Source: Bacteriovoracaceae bacterium
GTDB taxonomy: Bacteria; Bdellovibrionota; Bacteriovoracia; Bacteriovoracales; Bacteriovoracaceae
DNA: 32,641 nt
Reading direction: 5' to 3'
NCBI GenBank assembly: GCA_947446575.1
Contig: CANFHC010000034.1
Coordinates: 1-32,641, forward strand
Every line of letters begins with the position of its first letter. Position 1 is the first letter of the stretch. A model generated the notes under the pieces. That model saw nothing but the letters and a program-made list of their open reading frames with translations. It was not told the DNA's origin and made no database searches. Position numbers and translations under genes: made by a program. This document shows, in pieces, positions 2,523-10,386 of this stretch.

Positions 2523-2876
2523 ATGGTAAAGACAGAAGATAGTCAGAAGAAAATTTTTTACATCGAAAAAGGTGATTTTTTGCGCTCAATGATGGAATTT
2601 GCAATAAGGGCCCGTGGAGCGGATATTTACACCGTAGACACTCTAGAGAACAATTTCTACCTGTTGGATGAGTTAGTTCCTGACTTAATTATTTTTGACG
2701 TTAAAACAGTGTTCAATCAGCTGGAAGAATTAAAAAAATATAAGAATAAGGCCCACTTTGTAGCCGTAGGTGACGAAGGTGATCAAAATCTTGTCGCAGA
2801 TTTCGCAACCACATTTTTTACCAAGCCTCTCGAAGCAAAAAACATTGCGAGCCGCTTGCTTGCATTACTTGACTGA
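2523..2876 (+). CDS. Degenerate CheY-like receiver domain protein
   Basis: A 117-residue stand-alone protein with the length and pattern of a response-regulator receiver. The phospho-acceptor-like aspartate (D59 in LIIFDV) and the conserved lysine (K101 in FTKPL) are present. The acidic pair that binds Mg2+ is altered (IEKG at 14-17 in place of VDD) and the conserved Thr/Ser after beta-4 is a glycine (AVGDEG). It may therefore not be phosphorylated normally and could act as a constitutive adaptor. It lies 62 bases upstream of the MFS gene on the same strand and could be co-transcribed with the acyl-activation operon, though the gap is larger than any inside that operon. Confidence 0.65.
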   Translation: MVKTEDSQKKIFYIEKGDFLRSMMEFAIRARGADIYTVDTLENNFYLLDELVPDLIIFDVKTVFNQLEELKKYKNKAHFVAVGDEGDQNLVADFATTFFTKPLEAKNIASRLLALLD

Positions 2877-2938: not shown

Positions 2939-4165
2939 ATGGGTGGAATAAATTTTGAAATTCTTAAAGATAAGAATGCGTTGGTCATTTTTGTCTCGCA
3001 ACTTGTGTCGATTATTTGTGACAAGATGATGTCGCTAGGACTCGTTTGGTATTTAACCAGTAAGTTTTCCATCAATGTTGTTCCTTGGTATATGGCAGTT
3101 TGTTTTTTACCCCATTTATTGATGGCCTTCTTTTCAACAAAACTTATAAATCGCGTAGGTGTTTTACAGAGTGTAATTTTTTCAGAATTTTTTAGGGCAC
3201 TTGTTTTAATCATCCTATATGTATTTATTTTATTTTTCCATTTAGAAGGGGATCAACTTCTAACTGCACTTTTTATTGCAGGATTTTTCGTAGGTCTTGG
3301 GGGAAGTGTTTTTAATCCTGCCGTTCTTTCATTGCCTCCACAGTTAGTAACTCCAGAAAAAGTCATAGGCTTAAATGCGCTGATTGATACAAGTATGTCC
3401 ATCTCTACGATCTTGGGAGCAACATTTGCTATTTTTCTTTTAAATATTGTCGATCTCAAAATGCTCATTTTGATAAATGCACTTAGTTTTTTATGGGCGG
3501 GTGCTTTACAACTTGGTTTAGAAGTTAACATAAAAGAGATAGTAGAGGATAGGAGCGAAGAACTTGTTCTTGGATCAAGGGCGGTATTAAAAAAATATCC
3601 TGATATCGCAAGAATGCTCGGAAGTTTTTTATTTCTCAATTTAGTGTTTACTCCCATTCTCGTAATGATTCCTTGGTATGTTCAAAATATGTATAGAGGA
3701 AACTCTGGTACACTCGCTTTGATTGAAGGAGCAATGGGACTTGGAGCCTTTTTAACAGGGCTTTATTTATCGCTGGCAAGTTTTCGAATTGATGGAGCAA
3801 AAAGAATTACTATGATTAGCATCGTTTCATTTTTATTCGGTATATTTTTTCTTTTTTTTGCTTTTTCAAAATTTACTTGGCAAGGCGCCATTGTCTTATT
3901 TGCTATTGGAATTCTAAGTACCTTTTTAAATATCCAAGTTCTAACTTATTTTCAAACTGCTCTTAAAGTAGAAGAAATTCCCACAATTATGACGGCCGTG
4001 AATATCATAAGTGCTGCTTCTGTACCATTGTCATTAGGATTTTCTGGACTCATCTTTCCCCACGTCTTCATTCCAAATTTCGCTAAAGCAAGCGGAGTAT
4101 TGGTAATTATAATTGCGCTTATTATGCCTCGCTATTTAAAAGGATCGATATGGAAATTGGAATAG
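2939..4165 (+). CDS. MFS transporter
   Basis: A 408-residue integral membrane protein with about 12 hydrophobic segments split by a charged central loop (about residues 195-220, with EIVEDRSEELVLGSRAVLKK). This is the layout of major facilitator superfamily exporters, closest in look to the MefA/EntS-type (MFS_3) group. No lone substrate motif is readable. It is the first gene of a tightly packed operon, overlapping the GNAT gene by 16 bases, so it probably exports the product of the acyl-activating enzymes that follow. The export role is inference. The start ATG has a weak AGGTT ribosome-binding site. Confidence 0.8.
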   Translation: MGGINFEILKDKNALVIFVSQLVSIICDKMMSLGLVWYLTSKFSINVVPWYMAVCFLPHLLMAFFSTKLINRVGVLQSVIFSEFFRALVLIILYVFILFFHLEGDQLLTALFIAGFFVGLGGSVFNPAVLSLPPQLVTPEKVIGLNALIDTSMSISTILGATFAIFLLNIVDLKMLILINALSFLWAGALQLGLEVNIKEIVEDRSEELVLGSRAVLKKYPDIARMLGSFLFLNLVFTPILVMIPWYVQNMYRGNSGTLALIEGAMGLGAFLTGLYLSLASFRIDGAKRITMISIVSFLFGIFFLFFAFSKFTWQGAIVLFAIGILSTFLNIQVLTYFQTALKVEEIPTIMTAVNIISAASVPLSLGFSGLIFPHVFIPNFAKASGVLVIIIALIMPRYLKGSIWKLE

Positions 4166-5319
4166 AAATAAAAATACAAGAAGCAGATGCGGATGATGTT
4201 GATGAAATAATCAATTTATATCGTGCCGTATATGGAAGAAAATATCCTCTTTCTTATGGAACAGATCCCGATCTATTAAAGCGGGCTATCTTAAATAAAG
4301 AAACACATATGTGTTTAGTTGCCAGAGATGTCATGAATCGAGTTATTGGGGGAGCATTGATTGTTGAGATCGACGCTTATAATAAAATTGGAAAATTGTT
4401 GGGCCTTGTCGTTCATCCAACCTATCAACGCCATAAAATTGGCAATAGCCTTGTTAGTCACGTGAGTGATTTTTTTCTCAAAAAAGATCCAAGACTGAAT
4501 TCACTGTATGCCACAACTAGAACTATTACGGTTGGACCACAGATGATTTTTATTAAAAATAATTATCTTCCTTTAGGCATTTTTCCCAATGCTCACCGCT
4601 TGCATCAATATGAAACGGTAACTTTATTTGCAAAATTTAGAGAAAATATTTTAGAAAAAAGAACTCCCGTGCCATCAGCTTCGGTAAAACTAATGCCAAT
4701 GTACGGAATTTTAAAAAACCTTGTTCCTGAAATTGATCTTCCAAAGCCTGAAGATGTAAAACCCTTAGCCGTAAACGAAGATGCCGACGAGTGGGAGTTT
4801 GAAGTAATCAGAGCTCCCAATTACGTTTACAGAAAATTTTTAGAACGCTTTCCTGATCCAAGTGATCGCTTCTTTCCTTTCCATACACCGAATATGTTGA
4901 TCTCTGAAAAAAAAGGTCGAATGGATATTTTTGCGTATTTCAGTAAGCGTGATGGTTACTGCACATTAATTAAAGCAACACATCCGATTTCAGATTTGAA
5001 TGGGAGGCTCACAAGTCTCTACATGCAACTCGATGATATCGGAGTTTCCTATATCGAAGTTTTAGTTAATGTAAAACACACTCCACTAATCGACACTCTC
5101 TTGGGGGGGCAATTCCTCCCATCTGCTATTTATCCCGCGATGAGAGAAATTGATAATAACTATGAAGATTATATCGTAATGAGCAGAACAATGGAGCCTT
5201 TGAATTTTAAAGGTATGCACGTTGTTTCTCCTTTTAAACCATTTATTGATCAGTACGTAGAGGCTTGGAAGCAAGTCAACTTAGATACGATCGAGGTAAT
5301 TTATGGATCAAAAACTTAA
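4150..5319 (+). CDS. GNAT-family acetyltransferase, possibly tandem GNAT
   Basis: A 389-residue protein. Residues 5-150 are a GNAT acyltransferase fold: VARDVMNRVIGGALIVEI, then LGLVVHPTYQRHKIG with the acetyl-CoA pyrophosphate loop at about 93-98, then a helix and a strand pair. The C-terminal half (about 195-370) ends with LLGGQFLPSAIYPAM followed by DYIVMSRT, which looks like the second half of another GNAT domain with a degenerate CoA loop. It probably transfers an acyl group within the pathway encoded by its neighbours; the acceptor is unknown. The start has an AAGGA ribosome-binding site six bases upstream. It overlaps the MFS gene by 16 bases and the LuxE-like gene by 17. Confidence 0.75.
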   Translation: MEIGIEIKIQEADADDVDEIINLYRAVYGRKYPLSYGTDPDLLKRAILNKETHMCLVARDVMNRVIGGALIVEIDAYNKIGKLLGLVVHPTYQRHKIGNSLVSHVSDFFLKKDPRLNSLYATTRTITVGPQMIFIKNNYLPLGIFPNAHRLHQYETVTLFAKFRENILEKRTPVPSASVKLMPMYGILKNLVPEIDLPKPEDVKPLAVNEDADEWEFEVIRAPNYVYRKFLERFPDPSDRFFPFHTPNMLISEKKGRMDIFAYFSKRDGYCTLIKATHPISDLNGRLTSLYMQLDDIGVSYIEVLVNVKHTPLIDTLLGGQFLPSAIYPAMREIDNNYEDYIVMSRTMEPLNFKGMHVVSPFKPFIDQYVEAWKQVNLDTIEVIYGSKT

Positions 5320-6472
5320 TGTCCCTGATTCATCAAAATTAAAAAATGTTCAAAAGATTTGTGATGAAACATCACCATATGAAAATTTGGATAATCACGA
5401 TGCTGAATTTGTAATCGCGATGAGAGAAATTACATTGTGGCATTTGGAAAAATGTGAATTTTACAAAAAACTTGCGGCATCACAAAACTTTAAAATTTCG
5501 CAGGTAAAAACACTAGACGATTGTCTTTTAATTCCACATTTGTGGGCCCATTTTTTTAAAACTCATGAAGTTTTGTCTGTACCAGAAAAAGATGTCTTTT
5601 TGCATCTGACATCTTCAGGAACGACTGGACAAAAATCTCAAATATTTTTCGATGAATGGACAATTAAGTCAGCACAAAGAATGGTCGACTCAATTTTTGA
5701 AAAATACAATTGGGTAACACCCAATCAAAAATGTAATTATGTTCTCTTTAGTTATGAAACTGAAAGCTCTTCCAAACTAGGAACTGCCTACACCGATAAT
5801 TTTCTTTGCAAATATGCACCTGTAAATGAAGTGTTCTATGCTTTAAAACTTACCGGAAGTGGGGGGCATGAATTTGACTGTTTTGGGACTATCGAAGTCT
5901 TTTTAAAATACGCGAAAGAGGGATTGCCTGTAAGGCTGTTTGGTTTTCCAGCTTTTTTTTATTTTGCTTTAGAGCGAATGAAAAAATTAGGAATTCCTCC
6001 CGTTAAAATGCACCCTGATTCAATGGTGTTTTTAGGTGGTGGTTGGAAAGGAAATGCCGATAAGGCCATTGCCAAAGAAGATTTTTATTCTTTAGTGGAA
6101 GAAATGTTAGGAATTCCCAACGAAAGACTGCGTGATGGCTTTGGTTCAGTTGAGCACTGTGTACCATACGTAGAATGTAAAAATCATGAATTTCATGTTC
6201 CTGTTTGGTCGAGAGTCTTTATTAGAGATGTCGAAACATTAAAACCATTAGGATTTAATGAATTAGGTTTTTTACATTTTATTTCACCCTATATTACTTC
6301 TATGCCGGCGCATTCAGTGATCATGGGTGATATGGCCTCACTTCATCCGGCAGAATCTTGCGGCTGTGGATTGCCGACCCCCTTTTTTAAAGTGCACGGA
6401 AGAGCTGGAATTTCAAAAAATAAAAGTTGTGCACTCGCGGCAAGCGAACTTTTAAAAGGGAAAGCATCATGA
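5303..6472 (+). CDS. LuxE-family acyl-protein synthetase
   Basis: A 389-residue adenylate-forming protein of the LuxE type, which in luminous bacteria activates a fatty acid with ATP and carries it as a thioester to the reductase LuxC. The ATP-binding motif TSSGTTGQKS is at about 103-112. The C-terminal half has the LuxE pattern: DGFGSVEHCVPYVEC, FHVPVWSRV, a CGCG pair and GRAGISKNKSCA. C376 near the C-terminus is placed like the acylated cysteine of Vibrio LuxE. The next gene encodes LuxC, so the pair is complete, but no luxA or luxB is seen. A GAGGT ribosome-binding site precedes the ATG. The stop overlaps the next start as ATGA. Confidence 0.85.
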   Translation: MDQKLNVPDSSKLKNVQKICDETSPYENLDNHDAEFVIAMREITLWHLEKCEFYKKLAASQNFKISQVKTLDDCLLIPHLWAHFFKTHEVLSVPEKDVFLHLTSSGTTGQKSQIFFDEWTIKSAQRMVDSIFEKYNWVTPNQKCNYVLFSYETESSSKLGTAYTDNFLCKYAPVNEVFYALKLTGSGGHEFDCFGTIEVFLKYAKEGLPVRLFGFPAFFYFALERMKKLGIPPVKMHPDSMVFLGGGWKGNADKAIAKEDFYSLVEEMLGIPNERLRDGFGSVEHCVPYVECKNHEFHVPVWSRVFIRDVETLKPLGFNELGFLHFISPYITSMPAHSVIMGDMASLHPAESCGCGLPTPFFKVHGRAGISKNKSCALAASELLKGKAS

Positions 6473-8982
6473 ATTTATGGCAGGGACGCATAGTAAGCGA
6501 TGAAGAATTTAAAAACAACTTTTATGAAAAAATAAAGGATTCAGACTTTTGGAGTCATCCTCCGCTGTCTCATCAATTATTTTTCGAACTTATTGACCTA
6601 GCGACTTTAAAATTAAAAGAAAAAGGTGATTTTTATAATAAGCTTATCAGAGACTTAAGAGCAAGATCAGACATTCGTGAAGATGAAGTAATTCTTTGTA
6701 TGAAATCCTTGGAAGATTTCCTAGATTCTTCTAACTTGCGGTTGAAAGTTAAACGTGAATTGGGAAGTGAATTTCCTTTTGAGCTAAAAAGAATAAATTT
6801 TAAAGAAAATCATTTTGAATCTTGGTTTCCTTTAGGTGTATTAGTGCATGTGACTCCGAATAACTCACCATTGCTTGGCGTACTTGGAGTTATCGAAGGA
6901 TTGTTAGCCGGAAACGTAAATGTGTTAAAATTGGCCAGAAAAGACAGTGCATTTGCTGCCATTTTTTATCAAGAGCTTTGCGCGCTTGATACTAGTTCAA
7001 CTTTTAAGAATTATATTACCATCGGTAAAGTTTCTTCAAATGACAAAAAATACTTAAACGATTTTTTATCAATTGCTGATGTTATTTCTGCCTGGGGAAA
7101 TGAAGAAAGTATAAAAAGTTTAAGAGAGATGGCTCCTAGTAGAGCTCGTATAGTAGAATGGGGTCATAAAATTTCTTTTTCGTATGTTTCAAAGTCTACG
7201 TCGCAAGATGAAGATATGTTGAAAAAATTAGCATTTGAAATTTGTAATAACGAACAAATGGCCTGTTCGAGCCCTCAATGTGTTTTTGTAGAAGACGCAA
7301 GTTTTGAAGACTTAAAAACCTTTGCCACAAATCTTAGTATTGCATTAGGTATTGTTTCACCAACGATAGCTAGAGTTATGCCAGGTGTACAAGAAACAGC
7401 AGAGTTAACCGTCTCTAAAGAGCAAGTTAGACTTAATTCACTCTTTGGAAACAGTGAAGTTATTGTCGCTCCAAATAATGAATGGAGAATTTTCATTGAA
7501 GATTCGGCAGGATTAAAGGCCTCTCCGCTTTTTAGAACGATCTGGGTTAAGCCACTTCCAAAAAATAAAATTATTCATAATCTTAGACCCCTCAAAGTCT
7601 ATTTGCAGACGGTTGGGATTTCTGCAGGCCGAGATGAAATTGAAAAACTTTCTCGAGAGTTTTTTCAAGCAGGCGTTCAACGAGTGCGTGCCATTGGTGA
7701 AATGACCGATTCATATCTTGGCGAACCTCATGACGGTGTTTATGCATTAGAGCGCTATTGTCAAAAAATTTCTTTTACTGATTCGACATCTAAAAATTTA
7801 ATGAAAGGCAAAAATACTTTTGAAGAAATCAAAAGACCACTAATGCCTAAAAAACAAAACATTATGGAAAAGACTGACTTTCAAGATTTAAAAGTAGATC
7901 CGCGCTTTAGTGATTTATACTTTTATAGTGGTGGAAGCTCAGGAGATCCTAAACTTTCTATTTTCACTTATGATGATTACCATCGCCAAATGGAACTTGC
8001 CGCGGAAGGATTATTTGCAGCGGGTCTCGATCCTAAAGTTGATCGCTGTATGAATTTATTTTATGCAGGTAGTTTGTATGGTGGATTCATCAGCTTTTTT
8101 ACTATTTTAGAAAAGTTATTGGCCGTGCATTTTCCAATGGGAGCCAGTACTGATTTTGAATTAGTAGGAAAGACTCTTGTGACCAATAAAGTAGATACGC
8201 TCTTAGGAATGCCTTCTTACTTAATCCAGCTCTTTTCAGCCAATGCAGAAAGATTTAAAAAATACCACGGGATAAAAAAAATATTTTATGGTGGAGAACA
8301 CTTTAGTGAGGCACAAAAAAACTTTTTTAAAAAAGAATACGGTGTAGAAGTAGTTCGCTCCGCAAGTTATGGCTCTGTCGATGCAGGCCCCTTGGGCTTT
8401 CAATGTGAATTTTCCAATGGGGGAATTCACCATCTGCATGAGCGCCTTCACGAATTAGAAGTTGTAGAATTAGAAATCGACCAAGTGGTGAATCCAGGCA
8501 GTGTTGGAAGATTCCTCTTCACCTCAAAAGTTCGTCAAGGACAAAAAATCGAACGCTATGCGATTGGAGATGTAGGTCGCATTATCGAAGGGAAATGTGA
8601 ATGTGGAAGATCAGGGGTACGTTTTGATCTCATGGGCAGACATGGAGATGTGTTTAGAATTGGGACTACTTTTTTAAGTTATCAAAAATTTCAAAAGTTA
8701 TTAATTGATAAATATGATTTTGAGGGCTCTATTCAATTACACCTTTATGCTGGAAGTGGAGATGAAAAGGAAAAAGTTCAATTAAAAGTTGAAAACCAAT
8801 TTAAATTCCCAGTATCCAAGGAAACTCTCATGAAAGATTTGATGGATAATTACAAAGATTTAAAAGAAGTTGTGATGATTGATCTAGTGTTGGATTTTGA
8901 AATTGAATTGACGGAAAGAGCTGGGCTTACATTCAGCTCCAGTACTGGGAAATTACGAAGTGTAATTGATCATAGGAATTAG
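6469..8982 (+). CDS. LuxC acyl-CoA reductase fused to PaaK-like adenylating ligase
   Basis: An 837-residue two-domain protein. Residues about 1-435 match LuxC acyl-CoA reductase, which reduces an acyl thioester to an aldehyde with NADPH: HVTPNNSPLLGV and the segment to about 160, the active-site cysteine C266 in NEQMACSSPQ, and the C-terminal signature GEPHDGVYALERY at 418-430. After a linker (436-475), residues 476-837 form a phenylacetate-CoA-ligase/F390-synthetase-like domain with the phosphate loop SGGSSGDPK (487-495), SYGSVDAGPLGF, an IGDVGRI strand and a CECGR pair. The frame opens at 6427, but ATG at 6469 follows an AAAAGGGA ribosome-binding site and overlaps the LuxE-like stop by four bases. 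Family LuxC proteins usually stand alone at about 480 residues, so the fusion is unusual. Confidence 0.85.
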   Translation: MNLWQGRIVSDEEFKNNFYEKIKDSDFWSHPPLSHQLFFELIDLATLKLKEKGDFYNKLIRDLRARSDIREDEVILCMKSLEDFLDSSNLRLKVKRELGSEFPFELKRINFKENHFESWFPLGVLVHVTPNNSPLLGVLGVIEGLLAGNVNVLKLARKDSAFAAIFYQELCALDTSSTFKNYITIGKVSSNDKKYLNDFLSIADVISAWGNEESIKSLREMAPSRARIVEWGHKISFSYVSKSTSQDEDMLKKLAFEICNNEQMACSSPQCVFVEDASFEDLKTFATNLSIALGIVSPTIARVMPGVQETAELTVSKEQVRLNSLFGNSEVIVAPNNEWRIFIEDSAGLKASPLFRTIWVKPLPKNKIIHNLRPLKVYLQTVGISAGRDEIEKLSREFFQAGVQRVRAIGEMTDSYLGEPHDGVYALERYCQKISFTDSTSKNLMKGKNTFEEIKRPLMPKKQNIMEKTDFQDLKVDPRFSDLYFYSGGSSGDPKLSIFTYDDYHRQMELAAEGLFAAGLDPKVDRCMNLFYAGSLYGGFISFFTILEKLLAVHFPMGASTDFELVGKTLVTNKVDTLLGMPSYLIQLFSANAERFKKYHGIKKIFYGGEHFSEAQKNFFKKEYGVEVVRSASYGSVDAGPLGFQCEFSNGGIHHLHERLHELEVVELEIDQVVNPGSVGRFLFTSKVRQGQKIERYAIGDVGRIIEGKCECGRSGVRFDLMGRHGDVFRIGTTFLSYQKFQKLLIDKYDFEGSIQLHLYAGSGDEKEKVQLKVENQFKFPVSKETLMKDLMDNYKDLKEVVMIDLVLDFEIELTERAGLTFSSSTGKLRSVIDHRN

Positions 8983-8983
8983 A

Positions 8984-10249
8984 ATGAATATTCAAAAATG
9001 GACATTAAAAGAAATCGTTGAGCATGCTAAGAAAAATTCTCCATTTTATGGTGAATTGTACAAAAATATTGATGCTTCTGAATTATCCAGTTTACCAATA
9101 ATCGATCAATCAAATTTTTGGAAAAGCGAAGTCCTAACAACTAAAAATCAAGATGGAATAGTTTTTAAAAGTGGTGGAAGCACTGGTGCTCCTAAGTATT
9201 CTTTTTTTACTTCATTAGAATGGCAAAGTTTTACAACCGCTTTTGGCTGGGGAATTGCTCAAGGGATTTTGGAAGATAGTGACAAGGTTGCCAACCTTTT
9301 TTACGTTGGTGATCTCTATGCTTCATTTTTATTTATAAAAGATTCACTGCAATGGATACCTGTTGAATCCAAAAAGATTCTCCAATTTCCAATTGCTGGT
9401 GCAACAGACTCTAAGCAGATCTTAAAAACATTGGAAGAGTTCTCTGTAAATGTGATTGTCGGAGTTCCTTCTGCCATCCTCACTTTATTGGAAGATTATA
9501 TGCAAGATAAAAAATCTTATCCCAATATAAAAATAGAAAAGCTACTTTTTGGTGGTGAAGCACTTTACCCAGATCAATATTTAGCGATAAAAGAAATTTT
9601 TCCTAATATACAAATTTCTTCTATTGGATACGCTAGTGTCGATGCTGGTCTCTTGGGATTTTCAGATCGGACATGTGCCGATGGTGAACACCGAGTTTTT
9701 GACAAAGCTAATATCATCGAAATTGTTGATCCAGATACACTTGAAGTCATAACAGAGATGAATCGAGTAGGTAAAGTACTCATAACAAATTTGACTCGAA
9801 AATTAATGCCTATCATTCGCTACCCAGCTGGCGATTTAGCGATGTGGATGGAAAGTGCAGAGACTCCTTTTCGAAAATTTAAACTACTTGGTCGATCGGA
9901 TGAGGCTGCAAGGCTAGGGACTATTAGTGTTTATTTTGAAGACACTAGAGTCATGGTGATAAATGCATTACAAGAAATTCATGGATTACAATTTCAGATG
10001 ATTTTGAATCATTCTAATAATAAAGATGAATTAATTTTTAGAATCGCAGGGACCGGTTTAAATCCTGATTCTAAAATTATCGATCGAGTTTTGAATGCTT
10101 TTAAAAAAGAAAAACCAGCGTATGAAGACATATTGAAAAAGAATCTTATTCATCCATTGAGAGTAGAAATTTTAGATATGCACCTTTTAGAAGGAAATTC
10201 TCGAACGGGAAAACTTAAGCGTGTTATAGACAATCGGATAGCAAAATGA
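8984..10249 (+). CDS. PaaK-like adenylate-forming ligase
   Basis: A 421-residue stand-alone ligase of the phenylacetate-CoA ligase family, which activates a carboxylic acid through an acyl-adenylate. The phosphate loop SGGSTGAPK is at 63-71, IGYASVDAGLLGF matches the adenine-binding region, and YPAGDLAMW followed by LLGRSDEAARLG gives the hinge to the small C-terminal domain. It is clearly related to the ligase half of the preceding protein (shared SVDAG.LGF, GD and GR motifs), so the two probably arose by duplication. The frame opens at a TTG at 8966, but ATG at 8984, one base after the upstream stop and with AGGA before it, is preferred. Confidence 0.85.
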   Translation: MNIQKWTLKEIVEHAKKNSPFYGELYKNIDASELSSLPIIDQSNFWKSEVLTTKNQDGIVFKSGGSTGAPKYSFFTSLEWQSFTTAFGWGIAQGILEDSDKVANLFYVGDLYASFLFIKDSLQWIPVESKKILQFPIAGATDSKQILKTLEEFSVNVIVGVPSAILTLLEDYMQDKKSYPNIKIEKLLFGGEALYPDQYLAIKEIFPNIQISSIGYASVDAGLLGFSDRTCADGEHRVFDKANIIEIVDPDTLEVITEMNRVGKVLITNLTRKLMPIIRYPAGDLAMWMESAETPFRKFKLLGRSDEAARLGTISVYFEDTRVMVINALQEIHGLQFQMILNHSNNKDELIFRIAGTGLNPDSKIIDRVLNAFKKEKPAYEDILKKNLIHPLRVEILDMHLLEGNSRTGKLKRVIDNRIAK

Positions 10250-10386
10250 AAAAAAATATCAAACAATGTAGATGGCAATGTCATGGGATTGGATCAATTA
10301 AACATGCTTTAGAGGAATGCTGGATTTCAATTCAGCAAACTAGCAGCAACATTTATTCCCAATGCCAAAACACTTGTGTTGAATAA
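10246..10386 (+). CDS. Possible 46-residue Cys-rich small ORF
   Basis: An open frame of 46 codons whose ATG overlaps the ligase stop as ATGA, the same coupling as earlier junctions of this operon. The peptide has five cysteines, at positions 8, 12, 25, 40 and 44, arranged as two CxxxC pairs around a central cysteine, plus two tryptophans. It has no signal peptide or membrane segment, and no strong ribosome-binding site. Its last 60 bases overlap the convergent DUF1345 gene, which argues against it or means the overlap is tolerated. I do not recognise the sequence. It could be a real operon member or a chance frame. Confidence 0.3.
   Translation: MKKNIKQCRWQCHGIGSIKHALEECWISIQQTSSNIYSQCQNTCVE

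Follow-up and report, generated by a model that had tools for sequence, protein, structure and literature searches.

A leupeptin-like, carrier-free operon of LuxE, LuxC and PaaK-like ligases in the Bdellovibrionota, with a peptide aldehyde as its probable product

Background

Leupeptin is Ac-Leu-Leu-argininal, in which the argininal forms the warhead. In Xenorhabdus bovienii, leupeptin synthesis relies on separate AMP-dependent ligases together with a reductase (PMC11212599), and the leupABCD genes are known from Xenorhabdus, Photorhabdus and Klebsiella (Li et al. 2020, as cited in PMC11212599, PMC8283571 and PMC11480411). The leup genes of Klebsiella number four within 5.83 kb, with a transporter adjacent (PMC8283571), and the peptide acid is converted to the aldehyde by an ATP/NADH-dependent reductase (PMC7714073). 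Pyrazinones derived from leupeptin serve as signals in Klebsiella (PMC11480411).

Here we analyze an operon of comparable gene content in a Bacteriovoracaceae bacterium (assembly GCA_947446575.1, contig CANFHC010000034.1, positions 1-32,641 of the forward strand). The whole stretch of 32,641 nucleotides is referred to as the window; it corresponds to contig C34 in an assembly of 3.39 Mb from a Bacteriovorax-type host, and the closest named relatives are Bacteriovorax sp. MAGs.

Structure of the operon

Families were assigned with Pfam and NCBIfam profiles. Five ORFs, all on the + strand, lie in the order MFS, GNAT, LuxE, LuxC-ligase fusion and PaaK-like ligase, and neighboring genes overlap by 4-17 nt or are separated by 1 nt. 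The first (2939..4165, +) matches MFS_1 (PF07690, 5e-21) and is an exporter, probably for efflux of the product. The second (4150..5319, +) encodes a GNAT N-acyltransferase (PF00583, 8e-8, residues 31-123) with a conserved C-terminal half, proposed to transfer an N-cap (acetyl), and the third (5303..6472, +) a LuxE-type acyl-protein synthetase (PF04443, 1e-29), for which adenylation of a peptide acid and its loading on Cys376 are proposed. The fourth (6469..8982, +) joins a LuxC-type acyl reductase (residues ~1-440; PF05893, 1.2e-81) to a PaaK-like AMP-dependent ligase (residues ~450-837; AMP-binding), most likely starting at the ATG at 6469 and overlapping the LuxE gene by 4 nt. The last (8984..10249, +) is a stand-alone PaaK-like AMP-dependent ligase (AMP-binding with AMP-binding_C_2), a proposed second peptide-bond former, and its most likely start is the ATG at 8984, 1 nt after the LuxC-ligase gene.

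An initial sequence-only reading of the window had described a co-linear five-gene operon, and this description is borne out by the common strand and the family matches. It had also suggested a search for the same gene order elsewhere; the order is in fact kept in many genomes, so that the arrangement is not due to chance. Of the extent given at that time (2939-10386), the start is right and the end is not, as the last gene stops at 10249. Convergent genes, DUF1345 and HflX, come next. A small receiver-like ORF (2523..2876, +; weak response-regulator matches, best E-value 0.003) lies 62 nt upstream of the operon and is conserved in the genus, adjoining the operon in the members examined; it is outside the core cassette and is possibly a regulator or leader gene. 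A promoter and terminator scan of the locus predicted no more promoters than were predicted in shuffled sequence.

The absence of luciferase, also claimed earlier, holds for the whole assembly (95.5% complete), in which no match to Bac_luciferase (PF00296) was found, while control genomes gave matches. Condensation and carrier domains are lacking in the operon; condensation domains of the host genome are found only on another contig (C14).

Catalytic residues and models

Both the LuxE protein and the LuxC part of the fusion align with their counterparts, LuxE and LuxC, in PDB 7xc6. The C-terminal Cys376 of LuxE is invariant in the family (79/79 sequences), and the catalytic Cys of LuxC is kept in 81/81 sequences. 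A catalytic Lys is retained in 75 of the 81 fused ligases, and the A10-type Lys in all 57 stand-alone ligases. Given this conservation throughout the families, LuxE, LuxC and both ligases look catalytically competent, and the three adenylating modules counted previously are LuxE and the two PaaK-like ligases. At one locus (L119), LuxC and its ligase are encoded by separate genes, which indicates that the LuxC-ligase fusion joins two modules. An apparent third ligase, recognized by reading the sequence of another locus (L081), has no Pfam match.

PaaK-like ligases such as AjiA1 use aromatic acids, and the PDB matches of the ligase comprise phenylacetate-CoA ligases, AjiA1 and PaaK-like natural-product ligases. 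These matches would suit an operon for aryl-acid reduction or amide formation, yielding an aryl aldehyde or aryl amide; however, the operon contains no gene for aromatic-acid biosynthesis, such genes show no regular linkage to it in relatives, and the number of enzymes fits a peptide, so that an aryl product seems very improbable.

The GNAT protein contains about 200 aa of conserved C-terminal half beyond the GNAT domain. The conserved residues of the family are Y-T-R, GIFPN, Y-E and D, and a conserved canonical CoA P-loop is missing; the protein may not be an acetyltransferase. From shallow alignments, AlphaFold gave a model of low confidence for GNAT (pLDDT 57) and a poor one for the stand-alone ligase (pLDDT 40).

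Distribution among the Bdellovibrionota

LuxE (PF04443) is present in 104 of 369 Bdellovibrionota genomes, and three main types of architecture were read from about 80 loci. T1, to which the window belongs, has the order (MFS)-GNAT-LuxE-LuxC/ligase-ligase; with the MFS gene adjacent it exists in the genus of the window, in family f6 and in one genome of family f8. A closed genome (G015; 3,435,933 bp) also carries T1. T2 consists of GNAT-LuxE-LuxC/ligase only, whereas T3 comprises a ligase, an ATPase-like/GNAT-like protein of about 485 aa, LuxE and LuxC/ligase, usually followed by MFS and GNAT. The MFS and GNAT genes are missing or non-adjacent in some relatives; the same type of MFS is found in the cassettes of several families and of Streptomyces, with a remnant in Salmonella. 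No LuxE relatives were found in viral contigs.

No protease gene is consistently linked to the cassette among the relatives examined. A clostripain-family gene was considered as a target or immunity gene at one locus (L077), the only such case, and the idea was dropped as not general.

Relatives beyond the phylum

Streptomyces megaplasmids (NZ_CP108162 and S. cattleyicolor pSCATT) carry all five families together, in a cassette that is uncharacterized to our knowledge. Identity to the window proteins is 55% for LuxE, 38-39% for the LuxC-ligase, 37% for the ligase and 34% for GNAT. The gene order differs from that of the window, in that PaaK and MFS precede GNAT-LuxE-LuxC/ligase. Salmonella plasmids harbor a partly decayed LuxE-LuxC/ligase-PaaK-GNAT cassette with the MFS remnant; the GNAT frame is broken in one plasmid record and open in the other. 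Matches to the Salmonella cassette were not found in E. coli genomes.

In the LuxE tree, the window and other T1 sequences group with those of Streptomyces and Salmonella in one clade (supports 98/96 and 98/98). This clade excludes T2 and T3 and is distant from both true luxE and the LuxE proteins linked to ACP and SDR. The latter are found beside LuxC, ACP, SDR and AMP-binding genes in Deinococcus, Ponticoccus and Rhizobium plasmids, and they raise the alternative of a cell-surface sugar pathway of the kind seen in tetronate-like O-antigen modules. As the ACP/SDR-linked LuxE belongs to a different clade, and as genes for ACP, SDR or glycosyltransferase are absent at the operon, this alternative is largely refuted by tree and context and has next to no probability.

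In the ligase tree, the fused and the stand-alone ligases of T1 form two separate 100/100 clades, each including its own Streptomyces and Salmonella counterpart. The distinct jobs of the two ligases therefore appear to predate the spread among phyla, and two distinct ligation steps would be old.

A plasmid of Streptomyces europaeiscabiei carries a LuxE-LuxC pair 80 nt upstream of an ORF of 53 aa that contains four [DN][DE]FPFR repeats, and an enzyme of the RiPP-type MbnB/TglH/ChrH group is encoded nearby. The LuxE of this pair is sister to the LuxE of the Streptomyces cassette. The 53-aa ORF resembles a ribosomally made precursor peptide with multiple cores ending in Arg, and reduction of such cores would give a peptidyl-argininal. 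The position of an FPFR-repeat ORF beside a related LuxE-LuxC pair points to peptides, possibly Arg-ended, as substrates.

LuxE and LuxC are best known for the reduction of fatty acids, PDB 7xc6 itself being a lux complex, and a pathway can be envisaged in which they reduce fatty acids, GNAT acylates and MFS exports a fatty aldehyde or lipid. This pathway is improbable. No ACP, ketosynthase or LuxD gene is found in or beside the operon, the LuxE clade is far from luxE, the PaaK-like ligases are conserved together with the reductase, and the related LuxE-LuxC pair adjoins a peptide-repeat ORF. The sequence-only reading had proposed an exported lipid or small molecule derived from an aldehyde or alcohol; an exported aldehyde-type small molecule remains likely, and a lipid or fatty-acid product is unlikely on these grounds.

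Proposed pathway and product

Two ligases, LuxE/LuxC, GNAT and MFS make up a complement that matches the published logic of leupeptin formation. The operon probably makes and exports a small, N-capped, leupeptin-type peptide aldehyde with protease-inhibitor function, the operon itself encoding neither an NRPS nor a carrier protein; we place the probability of this reading at about 0.62. GNAT would add an acyl cap to the first amino acid. Each PaaK-like ligase would adenylate a carboxylate and join the next amino acid, and the number of ligases, their conserved catalytic residues and their separate old clades suggest two such bonds and hence a capped tripeptide acid. LuxE would then adenylate the C-terminal carboxylate and load the peptide on Cys376, and LuxC would accept the peptide on its own Cys and, using NAD(P)H, reduce it to form the aldehyde, which the MFS protein would export. 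The ATP- and NAD(P)H-dependent reduction of carboxylates by LuxE/LuxC is established in other systems. For the operon itself, the analysis shows gene content, conservation, catalytic residues and phylogeny; from these we infer that the ligases form amide bonds, that the N-terminus is acetylated, that the substrate is a peptide, and what the product would be. A basic last residue (argininal) is the best guess. Ten trypsin-family matches were found in the host genome, so that a trypsin-type inhibitor would meet targets within its own producer, a count that says nothing on its use.

The aldehydes may alternatively have another fate: the ligases and LuxE/LuxC might convert amino acids or short peptides to amino-aldehydes that cyclize (to pyrazinones or imines) or are further reduced to alcohols, in which case the product would be a signal instead of a protease inhibitor. 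The signaling pyrazinones of Klebsiella (PMC11480411) set a precedent, and clades with a single ligase (GNAT-LuxE-LuxC/ligase) would yield at most a dipeptide aldehyde. However, an N-cap is suggested by the conserved GNAT. With the free amine blocked in this way, cyclization through it would require a protease to remove the cap, and no gene for a cap-removing protease is consistently linked. A signal is thus rather unlikely as the product.

Extending the preferred reading, that of an N-capped peptide aldehyde, to the phylum gives a more tentative picture. The Bdellovibrionota might share a carrier-free peptide-aldehyde system in which one, two or three PaaK-like modules set the length and LuxE/LuxC reduce the end; predatory lineages might use it to keep trypsin-like proteases, their own or those of others, in check, and the same LuxE-LuxC branch might serve a ribosomal-peptide (FPFR) version in Streptomyces. 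Such a system is possible, and we advance it as a conjecture.

If the proposed product is correct, a bacterial group that includes obligate predators has long possessed operons for peptide-aldehyde protease inhibitors, and a function would be at hand for many LuxC, LuxE, PaaK and GNAT genes whose annotations point to bioluminescence or phenylacetate metabolism. One ligase module per peptide bond would be a suggested rule for NRPS-free peptide assembly. Why a protease-rich predator should make a protease inhibitor would then be a question to be addressed in cultured strains.

Comparison with known systems

The lux operon (luxCDABE) shares with the window operon LuxE and LuxC with their catalytic cysteines. 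It differs in its luciferase genes luxAB and in LuxD, all lacking here, whereas the window operon has extra ligases and a LuxE of another clade. The NRPS-reductase systems for peptide aldehydes (antipain, flavopeptin and livipeptin) resemble it in the class of product, as proposed for the window; in contrast to them, the window operon has no condensation domain or carrier protein, and LuxE/LuxC would carry out the reduction in place of an R domain. The ACP/SDR-linked LuxE-LuxC systems (tetronate-like) have neighbors that are not adjacent to the window operon, and their LuxE is in a different clade.

The earlier suggestion that the pathway may be undescribed stands in part. The use of separate AMP-dependent ligases with a reductase is published for leupeptin (PMC11212599). 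For predatory bacteria, no report of such an operon or product was found in the literature searched, mainly open-access papers. Two published leup primers (leupA/leupB), translated and scanned against the families as short primer-derived queries, gave no clear match; a first impression that the leupB_r primer peptide corresponds to LuxE was not supported by the scan.

The closest likeness is to leupABCD, as known from published description, the host here differing in being a Bacteriovorax-type bacterium. Discrete AMP-dependent ligases are represented here by two PaaK-like modules with conserved catalytic residues and predicted amide formation, and the aldehyde-making reductase by LuxC, with its invariant Cys, and its partner LuxE. 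Both systems have four biosynthetic genes with an adjacent transporter and no NRPS, within 5.8-6.1 kb here (4150-10249 of the window, plus MFS) and 5.83 kb in Klebsiella. In short, the best reading is that of a leupeptin-like, carrier-free peptide-aldehyde operon, widespread and old in the Bdellovibrionota.

Architecture and neighbours of the cassette

A natural split version of the cassette, in which LuxC (450 aa), the ligase (381 aa) and the second ligase (428 aa) are encoded by three genes, occurs at locus L119 (G216:C16). At six loci with a ligase-first cassette (L078, L085, L095, L100, L103 and L104), the cassette encodes one further protein, roughly 480-490 aa long, whose N-terminal part appears HATPase-like and whose middle appears GNAT-like. 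These six proteins mostly gave no Pfam match, and a related protein of locus L081 matched HATPase_c_2 and GNAT.

In the window, a gene for a small receiver-like protein (2523-2876) lies 62 nt ahead of the operon; it is kept within the genus and gave only weak matches. Downstream of a GNAT-LuxE-LuxC/ligase cassette lies a clostripain-family (Peptidase_C11) gene (L077:10129-11370); members of that protease family cleave specifically at Arg and are inhibited by leupeptin. The genome of the window also encodes, separately from the operon, an NRPS in two large ORFs (frames of 1875 and 2193 aa; G000:C14:13485-23315) with two condensation domains.

Copies on plasmids and in a Bacteroidetes MAG

Two Salmonella enterica records carry the cassette on IncF-type conjugative plasmids (L059:13578-19740 and L070:8578-14741); in both, the MFS gene is reduced to a remnant, and the GNAT frame is open in one and broken in the other. 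An MFS-GNAT-LuxE-LuxC/ligase cassette (L133/L026) was found in a Bacteroidetes MAG, where it occupies the end of contig G369:C46 (19.6 kb), which carries ribosomal protein and tsf genes as well. Its LuxE is 68% identical to that of the window, the GC content along the contig is even, and the cassette is absent from 30 relatives; either transfer or mis-assembly may account for it. A LuxE-like gene (30% identity) was also seen in a phage record from human faeces (L147, MT835565.1), an unannotated and unverified scaffold.

A candidate RiPP locus

On a Streptomyces europaeiscabiei plasmid (NZ_CP109155.1; L062:10307-14755), a LuxE-LuxC pair is accompanied by an MbnB/TglH/ChrH enzyme, and 80 nt downstream of these genes lies a 53-aa ORF with four [DN][DE]FPFR repeats, an arrangement found in this single plasmid record only. 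The repeat ORF likely encodes a RiPP precursor with several cores, which may give rise to peptide aldehydes ending in Arg.
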